Assembly: GCA_903867185.1 (NCBI GenBank)
Contig: CAIPQK010000213.1
Location: 1 to 41,009 of the forward strand
Source of the DNA: an uncultured Candidatus Nemicrothrix sp.
GTDB lineage: Bacteria; Actinomycetota; Acidimicrobiia; Acidimicrobiales; Acidimicrobilacustridaceae
DNA: 41,009 nt
Reading direction: 5' to 3'
The notes beneath the pieces were generated by a model. The model saw only the letters and a program-made list of their open reading frames with translations, ran no database searches and was not told the origin of the DNA. The position numbers and the translations under genes are program-made. Shown here one piece after another: positions 1 to 26,402 of the stretch. The number at the start of each line of letters is the position of its first letter. Position 1 is the stretch's first letter.

Positions 1-869
1 ACGACAACGATGGTGTTGTCCCATTGACCAGACTCACGAAGCGCTTGCCACACTCGCCCAAGTTGCTGATCGACGTCGCTAATCATCCCGTAGTACTGCG
101 CGCGCATTTCGCGCTGTCCTTCTTCGTCTGTCGGCGCCGCGAAGTAGGAGATTGACAACAAGAAGTCGTGAAGAGGGTGCAATTCGGTGCTTGGCGGAAT
201 CGGAAGATCAATTGCAGAACGGTCATACGCAGTGGCCCACTCCCCCGCCGCGGCGAATGGCGGATGGGGACGCAAATGACTCAAGTGCACAAACCATGGA
301 TCTTCTTGAGTCGGCAGCCACTCAAGGAATCGATTCGTAAGGAACGCGCTGATACCCACTTCTGCCGGTCGATCCGATTCCGTTGCTAAACCTTTTTCGG
401 GATCGCTCGGCATCTCATACCCCTGTGACCGAACCCAATCCGCCCACACCTCGCGACCACGAGTGAGATCAAGTTCGCATCGAAAGCCTGGAAGGACCCC
501 TTCATAGGTTTGGAGCCTTGGATCATCTGCAGCGACAGTGCGCGGGTCGATTGCTTGGTCGGTATAGCCAAAGAGCACCGGGTCGTAGCCACTTCGACGA
601 GCAGCACGAGCGATGTTGTCGAATCGATCATCAAGCGGCGACCCATTCATAACGACGCGGTTATTCATTTGGTAGGTGCCCGTATACAGCGCAGCTCTTC
701 CCGGACCGCATGGCGCTGCTTGGCCGTAATGGCGAGCAAAGCGCACCCCTTCTGCACACAAGTCATCAAGTGCAGGAGTACGCACAACCCGATGGCCCGC
801 AACCGACAAGCACTCAGCCCTGAACTCATCGAGGGTGATGAAGAGAACGTTGGGACGACCTTCAGCCAT
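1..869 (-). CDS. Phosphonate monoester hydrolase-like sulfatase (3' end beyond window)
   Basis: Alkaline phosphatase superfamily, type I sulfatase branch. From the ATG at 869 the 289 visible residues contain the first metal-ligand region (NVLFITLDEF, Asp14) and the formylglycine motif CGPGR (Cys54, Arg58) followed by LYTG, which fits C-x-P-x-R of enzymes whose Cys is converted to formylglycine. The stretch after it (MNNRVVMNGSPLDDR, then GYDPVLFGYT and DPRT) resembles the rhizobial/Burkholderia phosphonate monoester hydrolases (PMH) more than classical arylsulfatases; this is from memory of that family. PMHs are about 510 residues, so some 220 residues with the second Asp-His metal site lie outside the window. 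An in-frame ATG at 893 is an alternative start; 869 fits PMH N-termini better and has TANNNT 6 nt upstream. Divergent to the PhnY-like/PhnZ-like pair, suggesting hydrolysis of phosphonate esters. A sulfate or phosphodiester substrate cannot be excluded. Confidence 0.85.
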   Translation of the reverse strand, partial: MAEGRPNVLFITLDEFRAECLSVAGHRVVRTPALDDLCAEGVRFARHYGQAAPCGPGRAALYTGTYQMNNRVVMNGSPLDDRFDNIARAARRSGYDPVLFGYTDQAIDPRTVAADDPRLQTYEGVLPGFRCELDLTRGREVWADWVRSQGYEMPSDPEKGLATESDRPAEVGISAFLTNRFLEWLPTQEDPWFVHLSHLRPHPPFAAAGEWATAYDRSAIDLPIPPSTELHPLHDFLLSISYFAAPTDEEGQREMRAQYYGMISDVDQQLGRVWQALRESGQWDNTIVV

Positions 870-875
870 GAACGG

Positions 876-881
876 AGCGTA
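876..881 (-). promoter_or_regulatory. Candidate leaderless -10 element of the PMH-like gene
   Basis: On the minus strand TACGCT ends exactly 6 nt before the ATG at 869, and no Shine-Dalgarno sequence is present. This is the spacing expected when transcription begins at the start codon. No convincing -35 is visible. It mirrors the element of the divergent oxygenase gene. Confidence 0.35.
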
Positions 882-892
882 CGGCACCGACA

Positions 893-898
893 TAACAT
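893..898 (+). promoter_or_regulatory. Candidate leaderless -10 element of the PhyH-type oxygenase gene
   Basis: TAACAT is followed by 6 nt and then the GTG start at 905. An in-frame stop (TAA at 893-895) means the coding region cannot begin further upstream, and there is no Shine-Dalgarno sequence. A leaderless transcript is the simplest reading. The -35 is not recognisable. Confidence 0.4.
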
Positions 899-904
899 CG
901 GCAT

Positions 905-1672
905 GTGGATCAACCATTCTTCGACACCATCGAACCCGGACCCGATGCCGAAGAGCATTTCCGTCAGTTCGGCTGGGTACTGACCGAGCCCCTTCGCCCC
1001 GAAACTGTCGCCGAATTGCGCAGTTGGGTCGACGATCTCATGTTGTGGCCCGACGACGGTCCTTGGCTCCACTACCGAGAAGCCACCGCGAACGGCCCCC
1101 GCCTTTGCCGAACAGAAAACTTTGTTCCTTTTCACGACGACCTACGGGAACTTCTCACTCGAAGCGAACTGTCCGATACCGCGTCGATACTGCTTGACGA
1201 AACTGCGGTGCTCTACAAAGAGAAGATCAACTACAAGGCTCCAGGCGGTGCCGGCTATTCAGCGCATCAAGATGCGCCCGCATACCGATTTATCGAAACG
1301 CATGTGTCGTGCATGTTGGCCATCGACGATTCACGAGAGTCCAACGGTTGTCTCGAAGTTGTCTCGTCGATGCACGATGAAGTTCTTCCTGTGGACGATA
1401 AAGGCTGCATCCGCGCCGACATCATTGAGCAACTCGATTGGACTCCCGCCCCCATCTGGGCGGGTCAGGCGTTGTGGTTTCATTCCCGCACTCCGCATCG
1501 CAGCGGCCCAAATACTTCGAATGAACCACGCCGTGCTCTCTATCCCACCTATAACGCGCTGCGAGAAGGCGACCTACGAGCGGCCTATTACGAGCAGAAA
1601 GCAGCGGAATTCGCTGCGTCTGACGGACCACGCGTGTCGCTCATCGGCGACTTTGAAGGCCAGATGCTCTGA
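905..1672 (+). CDS. PhyH-family Fe(II)/2-oxoglutarate dioxygenase, PhnY/TmpA-like
   Basis: A 255-residue member of the phytanoyl-CoA dioxygenase family. The facial triad is visible as His121-x-Asp123 (HQDAPAY) and His198 (TPHRSGPN), with Arg209/Arg210 (RRALYPTYN) placed to bind 2-oxoglutarate. The preceding KEKINYKAPGG stretch is typical of the PhnY/TmpA-type branch, in which a phosphonate is hydroxylated at the carbon next to phosphorus. The GTG at 905 is the only possible start because an in-frame stop lies at 893-895. The stop codon overlaps the ATG of the HD-domain gene by one base (TGATG), so the two are translationally coupled. This is the pairing seen in PhnY-PhnZ and TmpA-TmpB systems. 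The exact substrate (methylphosphonate, 2-aminoethylphosphonate or a derivative) cannot be read from the sequence; another PhyH substrate is possible but less likely given the partner. Confidence 0.85.
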   Translation: MDQPFFDTIEPGPDAEEHFRQFGWVLTEPLRPETVAELRSWVDDLMLWPDDGPWLHYREATANGPRLCRTENFVPFHDDLRELLTRSELSDTASILLDETAVLYKEKINYKAPGGAGYSAHQDAPAYRFIETHVSCMLAIDDSRESNGCLEVVSSMHDEVLPVDDKGCIRADIIEQLDWTPAPIWAGQALWFHSRTPHRSGPNTSNEPRRALYPTYNALREGDLRAAYYEQKAAEFAASDGPRVSLIGDFEGQML

Positions 1673-2220
1673 TGTCGACAGCGTCGATCGAGTCCATCGT
1701 TTCCATGTACGCCAGTTGGGGAAGTGAGAAGTACGACGAAGAGATAACCCAGCTCGCACACGCCTTGCAATGCGCAGCACTGGCTTCACGTGATGGCGCA
1801 AGGAACGAACTCATCGCCGCCGCCCTCCTGCACGACATTGGCCACCTGTTCGAAATCGAACGCAAGAATGGCCCCGATCACCACATAGACCTTCGACACG
1901 AGCGAACTGGTTCAGAATTTCTTCAAGCGTTCTTCCCCAAATCCGTCACCGCCCCAATCGCCATGCATGTTGAGGCCAAGCGCTACTTGGCAGCCAACGA
2001 GCCCGGCTACGTCGAAGCTCTCTCGCACGGCTCGCAGCAGAGCCTCGAGGTGCAAGGCGGGCCATTTACTGCCAGCGAATGCGCAGAGTTCCTTGGGCTC
2101 GAAGCAAGCGCTGACGCGATCAACCTTCGTCGGTGGGATGACCACGGAAAAGTGATCGACCTCATGGTCCCCGAGTTTGATTCCTGGATTCCACTCCTGC
2201 GCGAAGTGGCAAACGGCTGA
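1672..2220 (+). CDS. HD-domain oxygenase, PhnZ/TmpB-like
   Basis: 182 residues, about the size of PhnZ, a mixed-valent di-iron oxygenase that splits alpha-hydroxyphosphonates to phosphate and a carboxylic product. Candidate metal ligands are His30, His54-Asp55 (LLHDIGH), His76, His99 and Asp156 (LRRWDDHGK). The His30-to-His54 spacing (24) and His54-to-His76 spacing (22) equal those I recall for PhnZ (H34/H58/H80), and the RRWDD motif is characteristic. Tyr21 and Glu23/Glu24 sit where PhnZ has its substrate-sensing Tyr24/Glu27, shifted by one residue, so substrate preference may differ. It is coupled to the upstream PhyH oxygenase by a TGATG overlap. An ordinary HD phosphohydrolase is the alternative, but the partner gene and spacing argue for the oxygenase branch. 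It converges with the next gene with a 3-bp gap. Confidence 0.82.
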   Translation: MSTASIESIVSMYASWGSEKYDEEITQLAHALQCAALASRDGARNELIAAALLHDIGHLFEIERKNGPDHHIDLRHERTGSEFLQAFFPKSVTAPIAMHVEAKRYLAANEPGYVEALSHGSQQSLEVQGGPFTASECAEFLGLEASADAINLRRWDDHGKVIDLMVPEFDSWIPLLREVANG

Positions 2221-12365: not shown

Positions 12366-12562
12366 GCGTCCTCACAGTTCTCGATTTGAGATCGAACTCA
12401 GTGACTCAGTTTCCGCCTTGGGTCACGAATCCTCAGGGGAGCATCGTGTCACTAGATAGCGGATCCCACCAGCCAATGTTGACTGATCCCGTAAATCGAT
12501 CTGACGCACCCACACCTCACAGGAGAACCACCCCACCTAGCAACGAGTTACTAGCATCTGAA

Positions 12563-12578
12563 TGTTCCGGACGGAACA
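12563..12578. promoter_or_regulatory. Perfect inverted repeat before cydA, candidate operator
   Basis: TGTTCCG-GA-CGGAACA: two perfect 7-bp arms around a 2-bp centre, 25 bp before the proposed TTG start of cydA. Size and symmetry suit a dimeric regulator. It lies in the 238-bp gap 12366-12603, which holds no gene. I cannot name the regulator; a redox or respiration sensor is plausible for a bd-oxidase operon. An ATG inside the repeat (12562) opens the same frame but lacks a Shine-Dalgarno sequence. Confidence 0.5.
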
Positions 12579-12603
12579 GATAGAGCAGAACGAGGGCAGC
12601 AAA

Positions 12604-14013
12604 TTGAGCGTCGAAGTCCTTCACCGTATTCAGTTCGCTCTCACCATCTCGTTCCATTTCATCTTCCCGCCCCTCTCTCTCGGCGTGGGCATGATCCTCG
12701 TCATCTTCGGGATCAAGTCGGTCCGGACCAAGGACCCAAAGTGGCGCCAGCTCTCAATGTTCTGGGTCAAGATTTATGGACTGATTTTCGCGATGGGTAT
12801 CGCCACCGGCATCGTGCAGGAATTCGAGTTCGGCACGAACTGGTCGCAATACTCACGTTTCGTCGGAAATATTTTTGGGAGTCTTCTCGCCGCTGAAGGA
12901 ATTTTCGCGTTCATGCTTGAAGGCGGCTTTTTGGGCCTCATGCTTTTTGGTGGAACTCGACTCGGAAACCGTATGTGGCTCTTCGCTACAACGATGGTGG
13001 TAGTCGGAGCAACATTCAGCGCGACCTGGATCGTCATGGCGAACTCCTGGATGCAAACCCCACAGGGGTTTGAGATCAAAGACGTTGGTCAAGGCCCTCA
13101 AGCCTTCATGACAAGTTTTCACGATGTCGTGTTCACTCCGTCGTTCCTACCGCGCGTCCTCCATGTGATCGCTGCGTGCTGGATGGTTGGTTCGTCGCTT
13201 GTCCTTAGCGTCGGAGCGTTCTACATACTGAAAAAACGCCACGTTGAACTTGCGAAGACAATGGTCCGAGTTGCGCTTCCAGTTTTCACGGTGGTCGCAC
13301 TGCTTCAGGTCGCCGTATTCGGCGCTAACCAGGCAACTGAAGTAGCGAAAAACCAGCCGGCGAAGCTGGCGGCGATGGAGGGTCTGTACCAAAGCGAATC
13401 CTGCGCACCCATGTATCTCCTGGGATGGACCGATGCCAACGCACAAACGACTAACGGAATCCATATTCCGTGTCTACTGAGTTTCCTCACCGATAAAAGT
13501 TTTGACGCAACCGTTACGGGCCTCGAAGCCACTCCTCGCGATGAGTGGCCAGCCGTCAACCTGGTCTTTCAGGTGTACCACCTGATGATCAATCTCGGAA
13601 TGTTGTTCATCCTGATTGGTCTGGTCGCGTGTGGATTCTGGATATGGAAACGCAAGATCTGGAACCAACGATGGCTTCTGTGGATTCTCGTTTCTTCTGT
13701 CGTACTCACTGAGCTTGCTACAGAGACGGGCTGGTGGACTGCTGAATTCAGCCGTCAACCTTGGATTGTTTGGCAGGTGCTCAAGACCACTGACGCCTAT
13801 TCGCCGAACGTTTCATTCAGTCAGGTCATGTTCTCGATTGTGATGTTCGTCTTGCTCTACATCGTGGTGTTCGTGGTGTTCATCCGGCTTCTTGATCGAC
13901 ACATCAAAGAGGGACCACCACCGCCCGTTGATCCCGATGAAACCTCCTCACTCCCCGACTCCTTCGGCGAAATCTTTCGGCGTCGCTCACGCGTCTCAAG
14001 TGGAGGTGATTGA
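12604..14013 (+). CDS. cydA: Cytochrome bd ubiquinol oxidase subunit I
   Basis: 469 residues from the TTG at 12604, which has GAGGG 9-10 nt upstream. It yields an N-terminus aligned with E. coli CydA, placing heme b595 ligand His at residue 18 (E. coli His19). His187 matches the heme b558 ligand His186, Met328 (YHLM) the second axial ligand, and Glu98/Glu106 the conserved acidic pair. The short Q-loop gives the reduced length compared with about 520 in E. coli. The usual GRQPW reads SRQPW here (residues 383-387). The protein reduces oxygen to water with quinol electrons in the cytoplasmic membrane. It is the first gene of cydABDC. A start at 12562 would add 14 residues and lie inside the inverted repeat. 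Confidence 0.95.
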   Translation: MSVEVLHRIQFALTISFHFIFPPLSLGVGMILVIFGIKSVRTKDPKWRQLSMFWVKIYGLIFAMGIATGIVQEFEFGTNWSQYSRFVGNIFGSLLAAEGIFAFMLEGGFLGLMLFGGTRLGNRMWLFATTMVVVGATFSATWIVMANSWMQTPQGFEIKDVGQGPQAFMTSFHDVVFTPSFLPRVLHVIAACWMVGSSLVLSVGAFYILKKRHVELAKTMVRVALPVFTVVALLQVAVFGANQATEVAKNQPAKLAAMEGLYQSESCAPMYLLGWTDANAQTTNGIHIPCLLSFLTDKSFDATVTGLEATPRDEWPAVNLVFQVYHLMINLGMLFILIGLVACGFWIWKRKIWNQRWLLWILVSSVVLTELATETGWWTAEFSRQPWIVWQVLKTTDAYSPNVSFSQVMFSIVMFVLLYIVVFVVFIRLLDRHIKEGPPPPVDPDETSSLPDSFGEIFRRRSRVSSGGD

Positions 14014-14015
14014 TC

Positions 14016-15035
14016 ATGTGGCTTCAAACAACCTGGTTCGTTCTCTACGTCATCATCATCAGTGGGTACGTCATCCTTGATGGCTTTGACCTCGGCGTCG
14101 GAATGCTCTCGCCATTCATCACCCACAACGATCACGACCGACGGATTCTCCTGAATTCCATTGGGCCAGTCTGGGACGGCAACGAGGTCTGGCTCGTTCT
14201 CGGTGGTGGCGCCCTGTTCGCGGCCTTCCCACTTGTCTACGCGTCGCTATTCAGCGGTTTTTACCTTGCGATGATGCTCGTGTTGCTCGTCCTCATCATG
14301 CGAACGGTGGCCATCGAGTTTCGTTCGAAACGCCCAGAAGCCTGGTGGCGTTCTCTATGGGACTGGACCTTCACACTTTCCTCATTCGGAATCACCATTC
14401 TTCTTGGCGTCGCGTTAGGAAACGTGATTCGAGGTGTGAGCCTTGATCAACATGGCAACTTAAACGTGAGTCTCCTCGACTTACTCAACCCCTACTCGAT
14501 CGCTCTCGGGCTCGTTGCTGTCGCAATGCTTTGCCTTCACGGCGCAATTTTCCTCACACAAAAGACCGAAGGTGAACTTCTCACTTCGATTAAGAGGCTC
14601 ATACCGAAGTTGCTCATCGCGTTCTTCATTCTCATGACCGCTCTCATCATCTGGACACTTCTTCGAGATGAGCAGTTCACACAGAACTTCAAGGATCGAC
14701 CATGGACGGCGTTCTTCCCGCTCTTGGCCTTCATATCAATCGCTGCCGCGTGGCTCTTCATTCGTCGAGGCGCCTACCTCAGCGCCTTCCTCGCTTCGGC
14801 AACGATGATTGCCCTCCTCATGGGTGCCATTGCTTGCGGGATGTATCCCGTCATGCTGCGCTCGACAACAAACAGCGCCTACGACCTCACGGTGCAGAAT
14901 GCGTCGGCGGCCAAGGAAACACTCACGGTGATGTTTGTGATTGCCCTCATCGGCATGCCATTCGTCTTGCTCTATACCGCTGGCGTCTATTACTTCTTCC
15001 GCGGAAAAGTAGAACTCGACGACGACAGTTACTGA
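14016..15035 (+). CDS. cydB: Cytochrome bd ubiquinol oxidase subunit II
   Basis: 339 residues, polytopic, with LDGFDLGVGMLSPF and GPVWDGNEVWLVLGGGALFAAFP carrying the conserved Asp and Trp-Asp residues of CydB that line the heme b595/d and proton pathway. The ATG at 14016 sits 2 bp after the cydA stop and has a near-perfect GGAGGTGAT Shine-Dalgarno sequence inside the cydA end, so expression of the two subunits is tightly linked. The TTG two codons earlier is a weaker alternative. It pairs with CydA to make the oxidase. Confidence 0.95.
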   Translation: MWLQTTWFVLYVIIISGYVILDGFDLGVGMLSPFITHNDHDRRILLNSIGPVWDGNEVWLVLGGGALFAAFPLVYASLFSGFYLAMMLVLLVLIMRTVAIEFRSKRPEAWWRSLWDWTFTLSSFGITILLGVALGNVIRGVSLDQHGNLNVSLLDLLNPYSIALGLVAVAMLCLHGAIFLTQKTEGELLTSIKRLIPKLLIAFFILMTALIIWTLLRDEQFTQNFKDRPWTAFFPLLAFISIAAAWLFIRRGAYLSAFLASATMIALLMGAIACGMYPVMLRSTTNSAYDLTVQNASAAKETLTVMFVIALIGMPFVLLYTAGVYYFFRGKVELDDDSY

Positions 15036-15072
15036 GACCACGCCGGCGATCAACGCGGTACCGTCACACCCC

Positions 15073-16722
15073 ATGAGTCCTCGGGAATTGCTGTCACAAG
15101 TTCCAAGTGCTCAACGCCTCCACAGACTCGGCGTTTTAGCGGGCGCTCTCGGTTCCATCGCCCTCGTCGCATGGACCCTTTCGCTGGCACGATCAATCTC
15201 TGGGCTATTTGAACATCGATCACCAACCCCGGCACTTCTCGGACTCGCAGGCTTTCTCGCGTTGCGAGTCGGATTCCGGTTTGCCAGCGCAAGGCTGCTC
15301 GCGACCTCGAGCAGCCGCCTCCGCGTGGGCGTCCGATCAGCCCTCACCGCCTTCTGGGGAGCCAAGCAAACGTCGTCGACATCGGCATCGACCGGCGTCG
15401 ACAGCACCCTCTTGGGCCCCGGCGTCGATTCGCTCGATGACTACATCACCAACTACCTCCCTGCTCGGTCGCTCGCCACTGTCATCCCGCTCGTTGTCTT
15501 CCTGACGATCGGCGTTCTTGACCCGTGGACGTTGCTCATCTTGCTTTTTGCTGGACCGATGCTGATTCTCTTGCTCGCTGTCATCGGCTCTCGAACTCGC
15601 ACGCTTGCCGACCAACGTTTCCGCGAACTTGGATGGCTCCGTTCCTTCTACCTCGACATGGTGCGCGGCATTCCAACGCTCAAGGTATTTGGTCGAGCGA
15701 CTGAAAGTGTTGTCACCATCGAAGAGATCAGCGATCGTTTTGGACGCACCACGATGAGTGTTTTACGTACTGCCTTCCAGACATCACTCGTCATCGAATG
15801 GGCCGCCACTGCAGCAACCGCGCTCGTTGCTGTTCAAGTCAGCTTCCGCATGATCGATGGAACTATCAGTTTTGCTACAGCCCTTGCCGTTTTGATGCTC
15901 ACGCCTGAATTTTTTGCTCCCCTGCGAAATTTGGCGGTTGACTACCATGCCGGGCAGGCAGGAAACGCTGTCCTCGCTCAGCTCCCGGACTTTGCCGAAC
16001 TCATTTCTCGGCCATCATCAGACCCACAACGTCGGTTGACGCGTCCATCCAGACCACCAACTCTCCGATTCGAGGAGGTTTCGTTCGCGTATCCGGGGGC
16101 TGACCACCTCACTCTCGATCACGTCTCTTTCTCAGTCACGGCTGGCGAGACTGTTGTTCTTCTAGGGCCGAGTGGTGTTGGAAAAACTACGGTTCTCGAT
16201 CTTCTCCATGGCCGAATCCAGCCATCAGCCGGAAAAATCACAATCGACAACACACCCCTCACGGATCTCGACCCCGAGGTGTGGCTGCGAGACATCACCT
16301 CGGTCCCCCAGAACCCATTCATGTTCAGTTCGTCTATCCAGGAGAACGTTGCCCTTTCAAATCGCGATATCTCCGCAGAGCAGCTCCGCGCCGCACTCAA
16401 CCTTGCACTCGCTTCAGAGTTCGTCGCAGAACTCCCACTTGGAATTGACTCACCGATAGGAGAAGAGGGAACGACCCTCAGCGGAGGCCAACGACAGCGT
16501 TTGGCAATCGCCCGAGCCCTGCTTCGCGATGCCCCACTTGTTCTGCTCGATGAGTTCACCGCTCACCTCGATCCCGAGACCGAACTCGAACTGATCTCGT
16601 CGCTTCATCCATTTCTCCAGGATCGAACAGTTGTCATCGTCGCCCACCGGGAAGCGACACTTACGCTCGCCGATCGAGTGTTCCGACTCGAAAACGGACG
16701 CATCGAAGCGGTACCGCGATGA
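15073..16722 (+). CDS. cydD: Thiol reductant ABC exporter subunit CydD
   Basis: 549 residues: an N-terminal type I exporter membrane domain (about residues 15-310) and a C-terminal ATPase. Walker A is GPSGVGKTT at about residue 366, the signature is LSGGQRQRLAIARA at about 469, and Walker B is LVLLDEF. CydDC exports reductant (glutathione/cysteine in E. coli) needed for bd oxidase assembly. In actinobacteria lacking glutathione the cargo may be cysteine or another thiol, which is inference. It starts 37 bp after cydB and overlaps cydC by 4 bp (ATGA). Confidence 0.93.
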   Translation: MSPRELLSQVPSAQRLHRLGVLAGALGSIALVAWTLSLARSISGLFEHRSPTPALLGLAGFLALRVGFRFASARLLATSSSRLRVGVRSALTAFWGAKQTSSTSASTGVDSTLLGPGVDSLDDYITNYLPARSLATVIPLVVFLTIGVLDPWTLLILLFAGPMLILLLAVIGSRTRTLADQRFRELGWLRSFYLDMVRGIPTLKVFGRATESVVTIEEISDRFGRTTMSVLRTAFQTSLVIEWAATAATALVAVQVSFRMIDGTISFATALAVLMLTPEFFAPLRNLAVDYHAGQAGNAVLAQLPDFAELISRPSSDPQRRLTRPSRPPTLRFEEVSFAYPGADHLTLDHVSFSVTAGETVVLLGPSGVGKTTVLDLLHGRIQPSAGKITIDNTPLTDLDPEVWLRDITSVPQNPFMFSSSIQENVALSNRDISAEQLRAALNLALASEFVAELPLGIDSPIGEEGTTLSGGQRQRLAIARALLRDAPLVLLDEFTAHLDPETELELISSLHPFLQDRTVVIVAHREATLTLADRVFRLENGRIEAVPR

Positions 16723-18395
16723 CATCGGAATCCTCGGGCCGCGAACTCTTTCAACGTATTGGCAAGACCCATCGCTGGTTAGCGCTCAGTTCACTCCTCG
16801 GAATCATCACAATCGGTTCTGGCATCGGGCTACTCGCCATGGCGATTTATCTTTTGACGCGTTCAGCAGTTCTCGGAACGGCCGCATCTCTTTCCCTCAC
16901 GATTCTTGGCGTGCGCTTCTTCGCATTGACGCGAGTCGTTGGTCGCTATTGCGAGCGCTATCTCGGACACCTTGGAACGTTCCGAGTACTTAGTCGGCTT
17001 CGCGTTTGGTTATTTGAACATCTCATCGCAACCGACTCAATCATTCTCGCCGATCAGCGCCGAGGCGACCTCGTCACAGGACTTGTAGACGATGTCGACA
17101 CAATGCAGGACCGTCTTTTACGAGTCTCTAGCCCGCCATTTGTGGCGTTCGGTACGTTGGCCATCGCTCTTGTCGCGTCGCTCGCGATTGATGTTCGCAG
17201 CGCTGTCATTCTCGCCCTGTTTTTTCTTGTTGGAGCGTTGGGCATTCCGCCGCTTCTCTGGTCACAAACCCGTCAACTTTCTGCTCAGTTGATCCGACTG
17301 CGCGCTAATCGACTCGCCGAGGCAACTGAGTTATTCGATGGTTTGGAGACACTCAAGATTTGGGGGAGAACCGATCAACTCTCAGAATCAATCGCATACT
17401 TCGATGCAAAAGAAATCGAGCTCACGCGTAAACTGGCGCGGACACGTTCACTTCTCGATGTCGCAGTCATGGGCCTTACGGGCTTATGTGTTCTCACAAT
17501 TGTTGCTGCACTCAGAACTACAGATGCTTCGACGCCGAACATCTGGTGGATCACCACAACACCTTTGATCGCGCTTGCCGCATTTGAAGCACTTGGCCCG
17601 CTTCTCGCTGCTCCCGACTATCGGGCCCAGACCGATGCTGCTGCGGGCCGAATTCTTACGATGGCCACGCCCACAACGATCACTGATCCGCCAGTTACAA
17701 CAGAGCAACAGTCATTTAGCGACCTTCCACGAAATCCAGAAATCGAGATTTCAAACCTTTCGTTCTCCTACGGAGATCACGTGCCCCTTTTCCGCGACGC
17801 CTCTCTCACTATCCCGTTCGGTGCGACTGTTGCCATCGCCGCTCCATCAGGTATGGGGAAATCCACGCTCTTACAACTCCTCGTTGGGCTGCTCCCCTGC
17901 CCAGAAGGATCCATTTCGATCGGGGGCCATCAAACTGCCGATCTCCTAGAACTGCCTCGCCCCTGCATCGCGGCCGTGATGCAGGACGACCACGTCTTCG
18001 ACACGACTGTTCGCGACAACCTCCTGGTCGGGGACGGCGATGCAACAGATCAACAACTCCTTGATGCCTGCGCTATCGCTGGCTTTCAACAGTTTCTCGA
18101 TACCCGACCCGGCGGTCTCGATGCACCTATCGGAGCAAATGGAGAACTGCTCAGCGGCGGCGAGCGTCAACGGCTGATGATCGCTCGCGCCGTTCTTGCC
18201 AATTCTCCAATCCTCATCCTTGATGAAGCCACAGAACACCTTGAACCCGAACTTCGTTCGTCGGTAATCGATGAAGTCATCCGGTCACGCAGGAACCGAA
18301 CCACCGTGATCCTCGCCCACGACATTGACGCACAGACTCATGCTGATGTCGTTTACGACATCGTCGACGGCGCGTTCATGAAGCGTCAGTCATGA
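16719..18395 (+). CDS. cydC: Thiol reductant ABC exporter subunit CydC
   Basis: 558 residues with the same two-part layout as CydD: six-helix membrane domain, then ATPase with Walker A APSGMGKST at about residue 375, signature LSGGERQRLMIARA and Walker B ILILDEATEHLE. Its ATG overlaps the cydD stop in ATGA, so the heterodimer partners are translationally coupled. The 3' end overlaps the convergent hydrolase gene by 10 bp, leaving no room for a conventional terminator between them. Confidence 0.93.
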   Translation: MTSESSGRELFQRIGKTHRWLALSSLLGIITIGSGIGLLAMAIYLLTRSAVLGTAASLSLTILGVRFFALTRVVGRYCERYLGHLGTFRVLSRLRVWLFEHLIATDSIILADQRRGDLVTGLVDDVDTMQDRLLRVSSPPFVAFGTLAIALVASLAIDVRSAVILALFFLVGALGIPPLLWSQTRQLSAQLIRLRANRLAEATELFDGLETLKIWGRTDQLSESIAYFDAKEIELTRKLARTRSLLDVAVMGLTGLCVLTIVAALRTTDASTPNIWWITTTPLIALAAFEALGPLLAAPDYRAQTDAAAGRILTMATPTTITDPPVTTEQQSFSDLPRNPEIEISNLSFSYGDHVPLFRDASLTIPFGATVAIAAPSGMGKSTLLQLLVGLLPCPEGSISIGGHQTADLLELPRPCIAAVMQDDHVFDTTVRDNLLVGDGDATDQQLLDACAIAGFQQFLDTRPGGLDAPIGANGELLSGGERQRLMIARAVLANSPILILDEATEHLEPELRSSVIDEVIRSRRNRTTVILAHDIDAQTHADVVYDIVDGAFMKRQS

Positions 18396-24845: not shown

Positions 24846-26402
24846 TCAGCCGACAGTGAACACACACGGTGCAGAGTTCAACGAGCACGATGTCGGAATC
24901 GCTGAACCTTGAAGGACATAGCCAACTGACCAGGTTTCCCCCGGCGCTATCGACTTGTGCCAAGAAGGACCGGTCGCAACAATCGACTGACTCGAACCAG
25001 CGAATGTTGTTGTCCAGTCTGCGTTCCACAAACTCGACATCGTTACACCGGCAGGTAGCTGAAACTTAAGGCTCCAAGGCACGGATACAGAACCAACAGC
25101 CGAGTTTCCCGTATTCGTGATGTCAATCGATGCTTGGAGTCCACCCGGCCACGCATTGATTACGCGGTATCGAACGATTGCTTTCGCTACTCCAGTTGAT
25201 GATGGCGTTGTCGTCGTAGTCGTGGGCATTGTCGTCGTTGTTGTACTTGGTGCAGTCGTTGTCGTCGACACAGGCCGACTCGTGCTCGTTGTTGTTGCTG
25301 CAGTTCCGCCAGCGAGCGCAGCGAGGTGATCTCGGTATCCGACACCGAAACCGGTCGGAGTTCCCGAATAGTCCGAGATCAACGAAGGACCATTTGTGCA
25401 CGACCACCCACCAGCAGCATCCCAAGTCCAACCCATGTAGGAAATGCCCTTTCCGTCGAACCAGTTCATAAGGGAATCGATGAATCCATGCGCACAATCT
25501 GTTTCTCCAATCTCACCGGCGACTATTGGGAAAAGCGCCGCCGTCGGAGCTACTGACTGATCCCACGATGCCTGCGTGTTGAATTGGCTGAAGTTGTAGA
25601 GGTGCAGGTCAGCGATGATCTGCTTTTGTGGGTCATTTGGAACCCACGTATTCCACGCGGAAAGATCACCCGCCCAATTAAGGCCGGAAACCATGATCGG
25701 TTGCGTTGCGCCCGTCGATCGGACTGCGTTCACAAGTGATTGCATTCCGGCCGCCTGCCACCCTCCGGATGTCGTGCAACCGTCTCGCCAGCACGACCAA
25801 GAAATATCGTGAGGTTCGTTGTAAAGGTCAAAAATGACTCCGGGATCTGTCTTAAAGGCAGTCGCCACCGATGTCCAGAACGCCGGAGCGTGGTCGGCGT
25901 CAGCCATGAGTTGCTGACTCGTGGCCAGTGTCGTTCCGGCAGCATTCCAATGAAGGTCGAGTACAACTGCCATCCCTGCGTTGTGAAGTGACTTCACGTA
26001 TCCAGCGATTGCATTCTGATAGTTGATCCCTGAATAAGCGGTATTCGCACCGTTGATGCCGAGCCAGCAATCCTCATTCAACGGCAGTCGAACGGAATTG
26101 ACATTCCACGACGCAATTGACGCAATTGACGCCGCATCGATTGGTCCGTCGAACAATCCCCAACCCTGAGCACACGCGTATTCACTTCCCGATCGATTCA
26201 CTCCGAGAAGTCGAACCGTCTGGCCCGTCGCATTCACCAAATGGTTACCCACCACTTTGATCGTTACTGGTGTTCCAAGAGTTGGAGCTGATGCTGCACT
26301 CGCAGCACCTCCACCAACCGCTGTCATCGTGACTAACGATGCAATCAGCACTGCCACTACTGAAATCAAAGCAATCGCGCTCGTCCGAATTCGAACTCTC
26401 AT
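24846..26402 (-). CDS. Secreted GH5 cellulase with CBM2
   Basis: 518 residues in four parts: signal peptide (about 1-38, ending ASAAS), GH5 catalytic domain (about 45-365), Thr/Ser/Pro linker (about 368-403) and a C-terminal family 2 cellulose-binding module (about 405-518) with NAWPGGLQ and the terminal CSLNSAPCVFTVG Cys pair. The acid/base is Glu196 in YNEPHD and the nucleophile probably Glu297 in VAGEIGE; VRLPLNEDCW is a conserved GH5 segment. It should hydrolyse beta-1,4-glucan outside the cell. AAGGGGAG lies 7 nt before the ATG. No other glycoside hydrolase is nearby, so it appears to be a solitary enzyme. Confidence 0.93.
   Translation of the reverse strand: MRVRIRTSAIALISVVAVLIASLVTMTAVGGGAASAASAPTLGTPVTIKVVGNHLVNATGQTVRLLGVNRSGSEYACAQGWGLFDGPIDAASIASIASWNVNSVRLPLNEDCWLGINGANTAYSGINYQNAIAGYVKSLHNAGMAVVLDLHWNAAGTTLATSQQLMADADHAPAFWTSVATAFKTDPGVIFDLYNEPHDISWSCWRDGCTTSGGWQAAGMQSLVNAVRSTGATQPIMVSGLNWAGDLSAWNTWVPNDPQKQIIADLHLYNFSQFNTQASWDQSVAPTAALFPIVAGEIGETDCAHGFIDSLMNWFDGKGISYMGWTWDAAGGWSCTNGPSLISDYSGTPTGFGVGYRDHLAALAGGTAATTTSTSRPVSTTTTAPSTTTTTMPTTTTTTPSSTGVAKAIVRYRVINAWPGGLQASIDITNTGNSAVGSVSVPWSLKFQLPAGVTMSSLWNADWTTTFAGSSQSIVATGPSWHKSIAPGETWSVGYVLQGSAIPTSCSLNSAPCVFTVG

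Follow-up and report, generated by a model that had tools for sequence, protein, structure and literature searches.

A recurring trio of a phosphonate monoester hydrolase-like gene and a PhnY/PhnZ-like oxygenase pair in Acidimicrobiia, and a candidate route from phosphonate esters to phosphate

Three genes at one end of the contig

The stretch of DNA analyzed here (the window) comprises the entire contig CAIPQK010000213.1, 41,009 nucleotides from the assembly of an uncultured Candidatus Nemicrothrix sp. (GCA_903867185.1; 2.57 Mb in 232 contigs), and our subject is a group of three genes at its start. A gene for a predicted phosphonate monoester hydrolase (PMH)-like protein occupies positions 1 to 917 of the minus strand (frame 917 to 3). 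Its 3' end is lost at the contig end, and 305 residues are present of about 488, a length taken from the full-length homologue at locus L067. Divergent from it, on the plus strand, lie a gene for a 255 amino acid PhyH-family Fe(II)/2-oxoglutarate oxygenase resembling PhnY (905 to 1672) and a gene for a 182 amino acid HD-domain oxygenase resembling PhnZ and TmpB (1672 to 2220). Pfam assigned the three proteins to Sulfatase, PhyH and HD, respectively. The PhyH stop and the HD start share one base (TGATG), and the divergent starts of the hydrolase (917) and PhyH (905), as called, overlap by 13 bases, with an in-frame ATG at 869 as an alternative start for the hydrolase. Scanning the window against Rfam and for tRNA genes gave no matches. 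Below, G and L numbers label genomes and loci, G000 being the window's own genome and g1 its genus.

The HD protein was compared with curated profile hidden Markov models (HMM), with the Protein Data Bank (PDB) and by predicted fold. It scored 214.0 bits against the NCBIfam model Phn-HD (TIGR03276), just below the cut-off of 214.6, which the HD proteins of five genus-mates exceeded; its scores against PhnZ1 (150.9 bits) and TmpB (148.3 bits) did not reach the cut-off of 300 that applies to both models. PhnZ1 outscored TmpB in the six relatives whose HD proteins were scored. PhnZ and TmpB were the sole matches at E ≤ 0.001 in the PDB sequence search (E 7e-30 to 5e-29). An AlphaFold2 model built from 30 sequences had a mean predicted local distance difference test (pLDDT) of 91.9, and all ten Foldseek matches to it at E ≤ 0.001 were PhnZ or TmpB chains (E 4e-13 to 2e-11), followed by myo-inositol oxygenase (MIOX) at E 0.07. 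Invariant in all 30 aligned rows were Glu23, His30, His54-Asp55, His58, His76, His99, Lys103, Ser121, Gln128, Arg153 and Asp156, while Tyr21 was present in at least 90% of them. These residues include those that act in the PhnZ structures as metal ligands (H, HD, H, H and D) and, with Tyr21 and Glu23, as a gate. The protein thus appears related to PhnZ and TmpB, with a specific substrate that is not transferable from either. An ordinary HD phosphohydrolase was rejected on the PDB sequence and fold matches, all to PhnZ or TmpB, and a Tyr loop peculiar to the window's protein was rejected as well, the Y-x-E spacing being usual among the rows listed.

The PhyH protein had a single NCBIfam match at E ≤ 0.001, to NF052437, the Gimesia-type methylphosphonate hydroxylase PhnY(GIM8), with 242.3 bits against an equivalog cut-off of 500. 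The same model was the best match for the PhyH proteins of three distant trios. His121-x-Asp123, His198 and Arg209 were present in 75 of 75 aligned rows, and correspond to the 2-His-1-carboxylate site and the 2-oxoglutarate-binding Arg of the family. Its structure was predicted poorly, at a mean pLDDT of 66.7. At E ≤ 0.001 the matches included TmpA neither as a chain nor as a model, the inclusion of TmpA in the libraries being unchecked. The pair looks like PhnY/PhnZ, and closer to the methylphosphonate branch, with methylphosphonate a candidate substrate.

The best NCBIfam match of the hydrolase was PehA, at 245 bits for the fragment and 425 for the full-length L067 homologue against a cut-off of 900, and its best PDB matches were 4uph, 2w8s and 2vqr, which are ArPMH, BcPMH and RlPMH (PMC12421950). 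In an alignment of 130 rows, some of which duplicate one gene, the Cys70 of the motif P-C-G-P-G-R (codon at 708-710 in the window) was found in 128 rows. PMHs are described as having His, not Asn, as the fourth metal ligand (PMC12421950). The metal-site residue Asp30 occurred in 127 rows and the pair Asp309 and His310 in 126, the window's fragment ending before position 309. Arylsulfatases and PMHs differ at two marker positions, with His versus Asp or Thr at one and Lys versus Tyr at the other (PMC5488252). Tyr118 (126 of 130 rows) and Asp120 (128 of 130), both within the window's fragment, fit the PMH side of this criterion, and an arylsulfatase was rejected on that ground. At position 31, Gln was present in 112 rows and Glu in 15; the Glu31 rows, in which a metal-site Gln is replaced, all come from genus g1 and comprise the window's own (codon 827-825) and 14 further rows. 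Inspection by eye of the N terminus revealed no hydrophobic export stretch, and direct action on extracellular polysaccharide is therefore disfavored.

An earlier reading of this DNA from its letters and open reading frames (the sequence-only reading) had given the three reading frames and their order as found here. Its assignment of the HD protein as PhnZ-like agrees with the HMM, PDB sequence and fold comparisons, and its PMH-like hydrolase with the published PMH-specific residues. Of its label PhnY/TmpA for the PhyH protein, PhnY is supported and no match to TmpA was seen, and the polysaccharide-bound substrate that it suggested is not supported by the hydrolase N terminus.

Conservation and linkage of the trio

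The family sample comprised 37 genomes, 21 of them from genus g1, with the HD gene counted at >130 bits. The HD gene was present in 19 of the 21 genus genomes (not in G011 or G012), and in 16 of these 19, G000 included, the hydrolase lay divergent to the PhyH-HD pair. The contigs of the other three (G001, G008 and G018) end before the place of the hydrolase; every genus genome whose flank is assembled (16 of 16) retains the trio. Flanking genes are also conserved within the genus. In a second genus, g11, both genomes (G034 and G035) have the trio without the five neighboring genes of the window that we tested. Since this genus keeps the trio without them, the five downstream genes (DapB-like, epimerase, short-chain dehydrogenase/reductase, F420 enzyme and DsbA) were rejected as parts of the system. 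Loci L034 and L035 share 82-84% identity and gene order with genus g1, which does not agree with their title 'Bifidobacterium breve'; they are probably mislabelled.

A class sample of 395 genomes was searched with thresholds of E ≤ 1e-25 for PhyH and E ≤ 1e-60 for the hydrolase. PhyH was found in 60 genomes, the hydrolase in 101 (102 places) and both in 49. In 11 of these 49, representing 7 genera and 6 families, the two lay in one cluster (G000, G006, G014, G015 and G020, all of one genus, and G034, G125, G129, G274, G323 and G421). Outside the family, the trio occurred in five further genomes from five other families of the class, again without the five tested neighbors. In G125, G323 and G421 (L140, L145 and L156) the three genes are co-directional, hydrolase first, then PhyH and HD, and about 10-110 bases separate them; the order in G274 is hydrolase, HD, PhyH, and in G129 the hydrolase and HD genes are opposite in direction to PhyH. 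G090 has a hydrolase-HD arrangement with PhyH on a different contig, and the HD match in G225 is weak. A FastTree tree of hydrolases from the class, built from 103 rows minus the short ones, was rooted at its midpoint and read without its support values; the trio members stood at about six places, all within one half. The Fisher test of co-presence (49, 11, 52, 283) and a rough binomial for the 11 of 49 ignore kinship and are not probabilities. The gene caller produced spurious long frames at GC-rich loci, and statements on those loci rest on tblastn and HMM matches. We conclude that the trio is a real arrangement, both conserved and recurrent.

Leaving aside genus g1 and G034, there were 54 PhyH loci, and the fetched stretch held an HD gene in 42 of them and PhnD in 4. 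In the phylum sample (396 genomes), the one PhyH from outside the class was that of G511, which is accompanied by HD but has no hydrolase in its 1.5 kb flank. At two loci of another actinobacterial lineage (L044:3-6077 and L045:2-6537), the PhyH-HD pair is divergent from genes for a choice-of-anchor I protein, PhnD, PhnC and a probable permease.

Other phosphorus genes were searched for in the family sample. PhnJ, of the carbon-phosphorus (C-P) lyase, was found in one of the 37 genomes (G025) and not in G000. Phosphoenolpyruvate (PEP) mutase was above its cut-off in none of the 37 and below it in six, none of them from genus g1, and recycling of the cell's own phosphonates was rejected on the absence of above-cut-off matches.

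The maturation of the hydrolase was considered through the genes for FGE and anSME. FGE (PF03781) had no match in 20 of the 21 genus g1 genomes, G000 included, and a weak one in G011, and it was matched in 14 of the remaining 16 genomes of the family, in some as split matches within a long frame that we take to be the ergothioneine enzyme EgtB. When 13 genomes were rechecked at E ≤ 1, G129 had a strong match (236 bits), G090 one of 113 bits over the entire model, G035 and G274 split matches and the remaining nine none. An anSME-type maturase was above cut-off in 11 of the 21 genus genomes, G000 included; the weak anSME matches elsewhere (about 1e-10) probably represent other radical-SAM enzymes. 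Four trio-bearing genomes that are 93-100% complete (G007, G010, G015 and G020) gave neither an FGE match nor an anSME above cut-off, although a contig end in G015 may conceal the gene. Cys motifs are present in every sulfatase fetched from G010 (4), G015 (7) and G020 (3) (L288-L294 and L300-L306). Some Cys sulfatases are modified in E. coli by machinery described as unidentified, and BcPMH retains some activity without the modification (PMC6189696).

Taken as a whole, the sequence-only reading held for the HD and PhyH proteins and for the co-occurrence of the three genes, which extends from genus g1 to the second genus and other families of the class; the C-P-lyase independence that it proposed is borne out as far as PhnJ was not found in G000. 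Besides TmpA and the polysaccharide, its term 'formylglycine' for the hydrolase is the part that these data do not support: the Cys motif is there, with the FGE and anSME distribution given above.

Two further features of the window lie apart from the trio. Positions 12562-18395 carry genes for subunits I and II of cytochrome bd and, after them, two ATP-binding cassette (ABC) transporter genes, a cydABCD-like order, and positions 24846-26402 encode a GH5 cellulase with a CBM2 module.

A candidate pathway and competing explanations

Judged by its protein families and their residues, the trio probably constitutes a C-P-lyase-independent pathway that would turn phosphonate esters into phosphate. 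In this pathway, for which we infer all substrates, the order of the steps, the cytoplasmic location and the operon structure, a cytoplasmic PMH would act on a small phosphonate monoester (or diester) that the cell has imported, releasing an alcohol and a free phosphonate. The PhnY-type PhyH enzyme would then hydroxylate the carbon adjoining the phosphorus, using O2 and 2-oxoglutarate, and the PhnZ-type HD diiron oxygenase would cleave the C-P bond with O2, yielding phosphate and a carboxylate, which would be formate from methylphosphonate or glycine from 2-aminoethylphosphonate. Methylphosphonate or a near relative is our first guess for the phosphonate, offered tentatively and with slightly more doubt than confidence. 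If the pathway is true, actinobacteria in which no C-P lyase is detectable would consume phosphonate esters without releasing methane, and a natural function would be at hand for the promiscuous PMH family. It is possible, though we regard it as doubtful, that feeding the oxidative PhnY/PhnZ pair is a main natural role of this PMH branch, as part of a repeatedly assembled, aerobic, methane-free route from ester to phosphate in Acidimicrobiia-like actinobacteria, some species of which would use a Cys-type hydrolase with neither known maturase found.

A number of observations weigh against the proposed pathway. Every equivalog score is below its curated cut-off, and exact substrates are therefore not transferable; because PMHs are promiscuous, phosphodiesters or sulfates are possible substrates. 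The phosphonate-binding transporter protein PF12974, matched in 18 of the 37 family genomes, was not matched in G000. The fetched flanks of 89 of the 102 class hydrolase places (1.5-4 kb, some cut by contig ends) contain neither PhyH nor HD, hydrolase and PhyH are separate in 38 of the 49 genomes with both, and in G185 and G124 the hydrolase lies about 9 kb from the PhyH-HD pair. Around 113 hydrolase loci (duplicates included), with neighbor families named by eye, 14 had PhyH-like and 10 HD-like neighbors, and another group of hydrolases had, just as commonly, neighbors that were alpha/beta-hydrolase-like (14) or amino-acid-ABC-transporter-like (12, 11 and 10). We excluded from these counts the two largest neighbor families (42 and 38 loci), which consist of frames antisense to the hydrolase. 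ABC transporter genes surround the RlPMH gene on pRL9 and likewise a hydrolase gene of Pseudoroseomonas. PhyH-HD pairs are frequent without the hydrolase in the class sample, and Dietzia and Rhodococcus plasmids have PhyH-HD with no such hydrolase within 5 kb. Given the ABC transporter neighborhoods and the pairs without a hydrolase, the PMH family has uses beyond PhnYZ. On the two plasmids (L318 and L319) the same order is seen, a methionine-synthase-II-like gene, a 2-oxoglutarate oxygenase and a YaaH-type transporter preceding PhyH-HD.

The solitary hydrolases and PhnYZ pairs, together with the pRL9 arrangement, are consistent with separate roles, in which PhyH-HD would be PhnYZ for free phosphonates and the hydrolase would act elsewhere, on phosphodiesters or sulfate esters as a phosphorus or sulfur source, the common role being only nutrient scavenging. 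We consider this unlikely, as the trio members at several places of the hydrolase tree, the close co-directional trios in three genomes, the retention of the trio in the second genus with the five tested neighbors gone and the conserved PMH-specific residues argue against it. Mere proximity inherited inside one genus, with no common function, would fit the conservation of flanking genes within genus g1, but is highly improbable given the trios without those neighbors in g11 and in five genomes of five other families. A variant that keeps the proposed ester-to-phosphate pathway changes its substrate: the ester would be a phosphonolipid or glycerophosphonate-type headgroup, and the pair would be of the 2-aminoethylphosphonate or trimethylaminoethylphosphonate type, giving glycine or betaine and phosphate instead of formate. 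The nearly equal PhnZ1 and TmpB scores of the window's HD protein suggest such a variant, and PMHs act on phosphodiesters too (PMC5649143), but the PhyH protein matches the methylphosphonate hydroxylase model alone and PhnZ1 beats TmpB in the six relatives; on balance we think it rather unlikely, if less so than separate roles.

Comparison with known systems

One of the closest counterparts of the trio is the PhnY/PhnZ pathway, known in a 2-aminoethylphosphonate type (HF130) and a methylphosphonate type (Gimesia maris and Prochlorococcus MIT9301). The window shares with it the PhyH gene followed by the HD oxygenase gene, and the PhnZ fold and ligands, but adds the PMH-like hydrolase and scores below the equivalog cut-offs. 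In MIT9301, ptxABC lies beside phnYZ (PMC6581173), whereas no transporter was recognized alongside the window's trio. The window's HD protein is also close to TmpB of the TmpA/TmpB system of Leisingera caerulea (6npa, E 6.8e-30), but the first enzyme differs in being of the PhyH family, with the TmpA result given above. A review counts four versions of the oxidative pathway, and in its accessible portion none has an ester hydrolase; it also describes methylphosphonate as yielding methane through C-P lyase and formate through the oxidative route (PMC10574752).

Near PhnZ-like genes of other phyla we observed PhnA-like proteins of the type I phosphodiesterase kind, members of the metalloenzyme superfamily and calcineurin-like phosphoesterases, at loci L051 and L053 (Prochlorococcus), L057 (Emticicia), L050 (Spirosoma) and L060 (Bryobacterales), L051 and L060 being identified by eye. 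A wider theme of a hydrolase plus PhnZ may exist across phyla.

The characterized PMHs RlPMH (2vqr), BcPMH (2w8s) and ArPMH (4uph) have in common with the window's hydrolase the Cys motif and the Tyr and Asp specificity positions, and with most of the aligned rows the Asp-His metal pair. They differ from it in that the window's motif is C-G-P-G-R and that Glu replaces Gln31 in part of genus g1, and the window's gene is linked to PhnYZ, unlike that of RlPMH on pRL9.

The phosphonates of marine high-molecular-weight dissolved organic matter are described as ester-bound to polysaccharide, and an enzyme cleaving these esters has been postulated, of an alkaline-phosphatase-like kind; a PEH is named in Sulfitobacter, mostly with C-P lyase (PMC5649143). 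Prochlorococcus with phnYZ may use polysaccharide esters, the accessible text naming no hydrolase (PMC6581173). We found no publication joining a PMH-type hydrolase with PhnYZ in a literature search that excluded most subscription journals. The Sulfitobacter proposal is alike in that an ester hydrolase of the same family would free phosphonates for C-P cleavage, but there the cleavage is by C-P lyase with methane released (PMC5649143), whereas the window's genome has the oxidative pair and no PhnJ was found in it. Set beside these systems, the trio is a combination of known enzyme families and not new chemistry, and it is the grouping that appears to be new.

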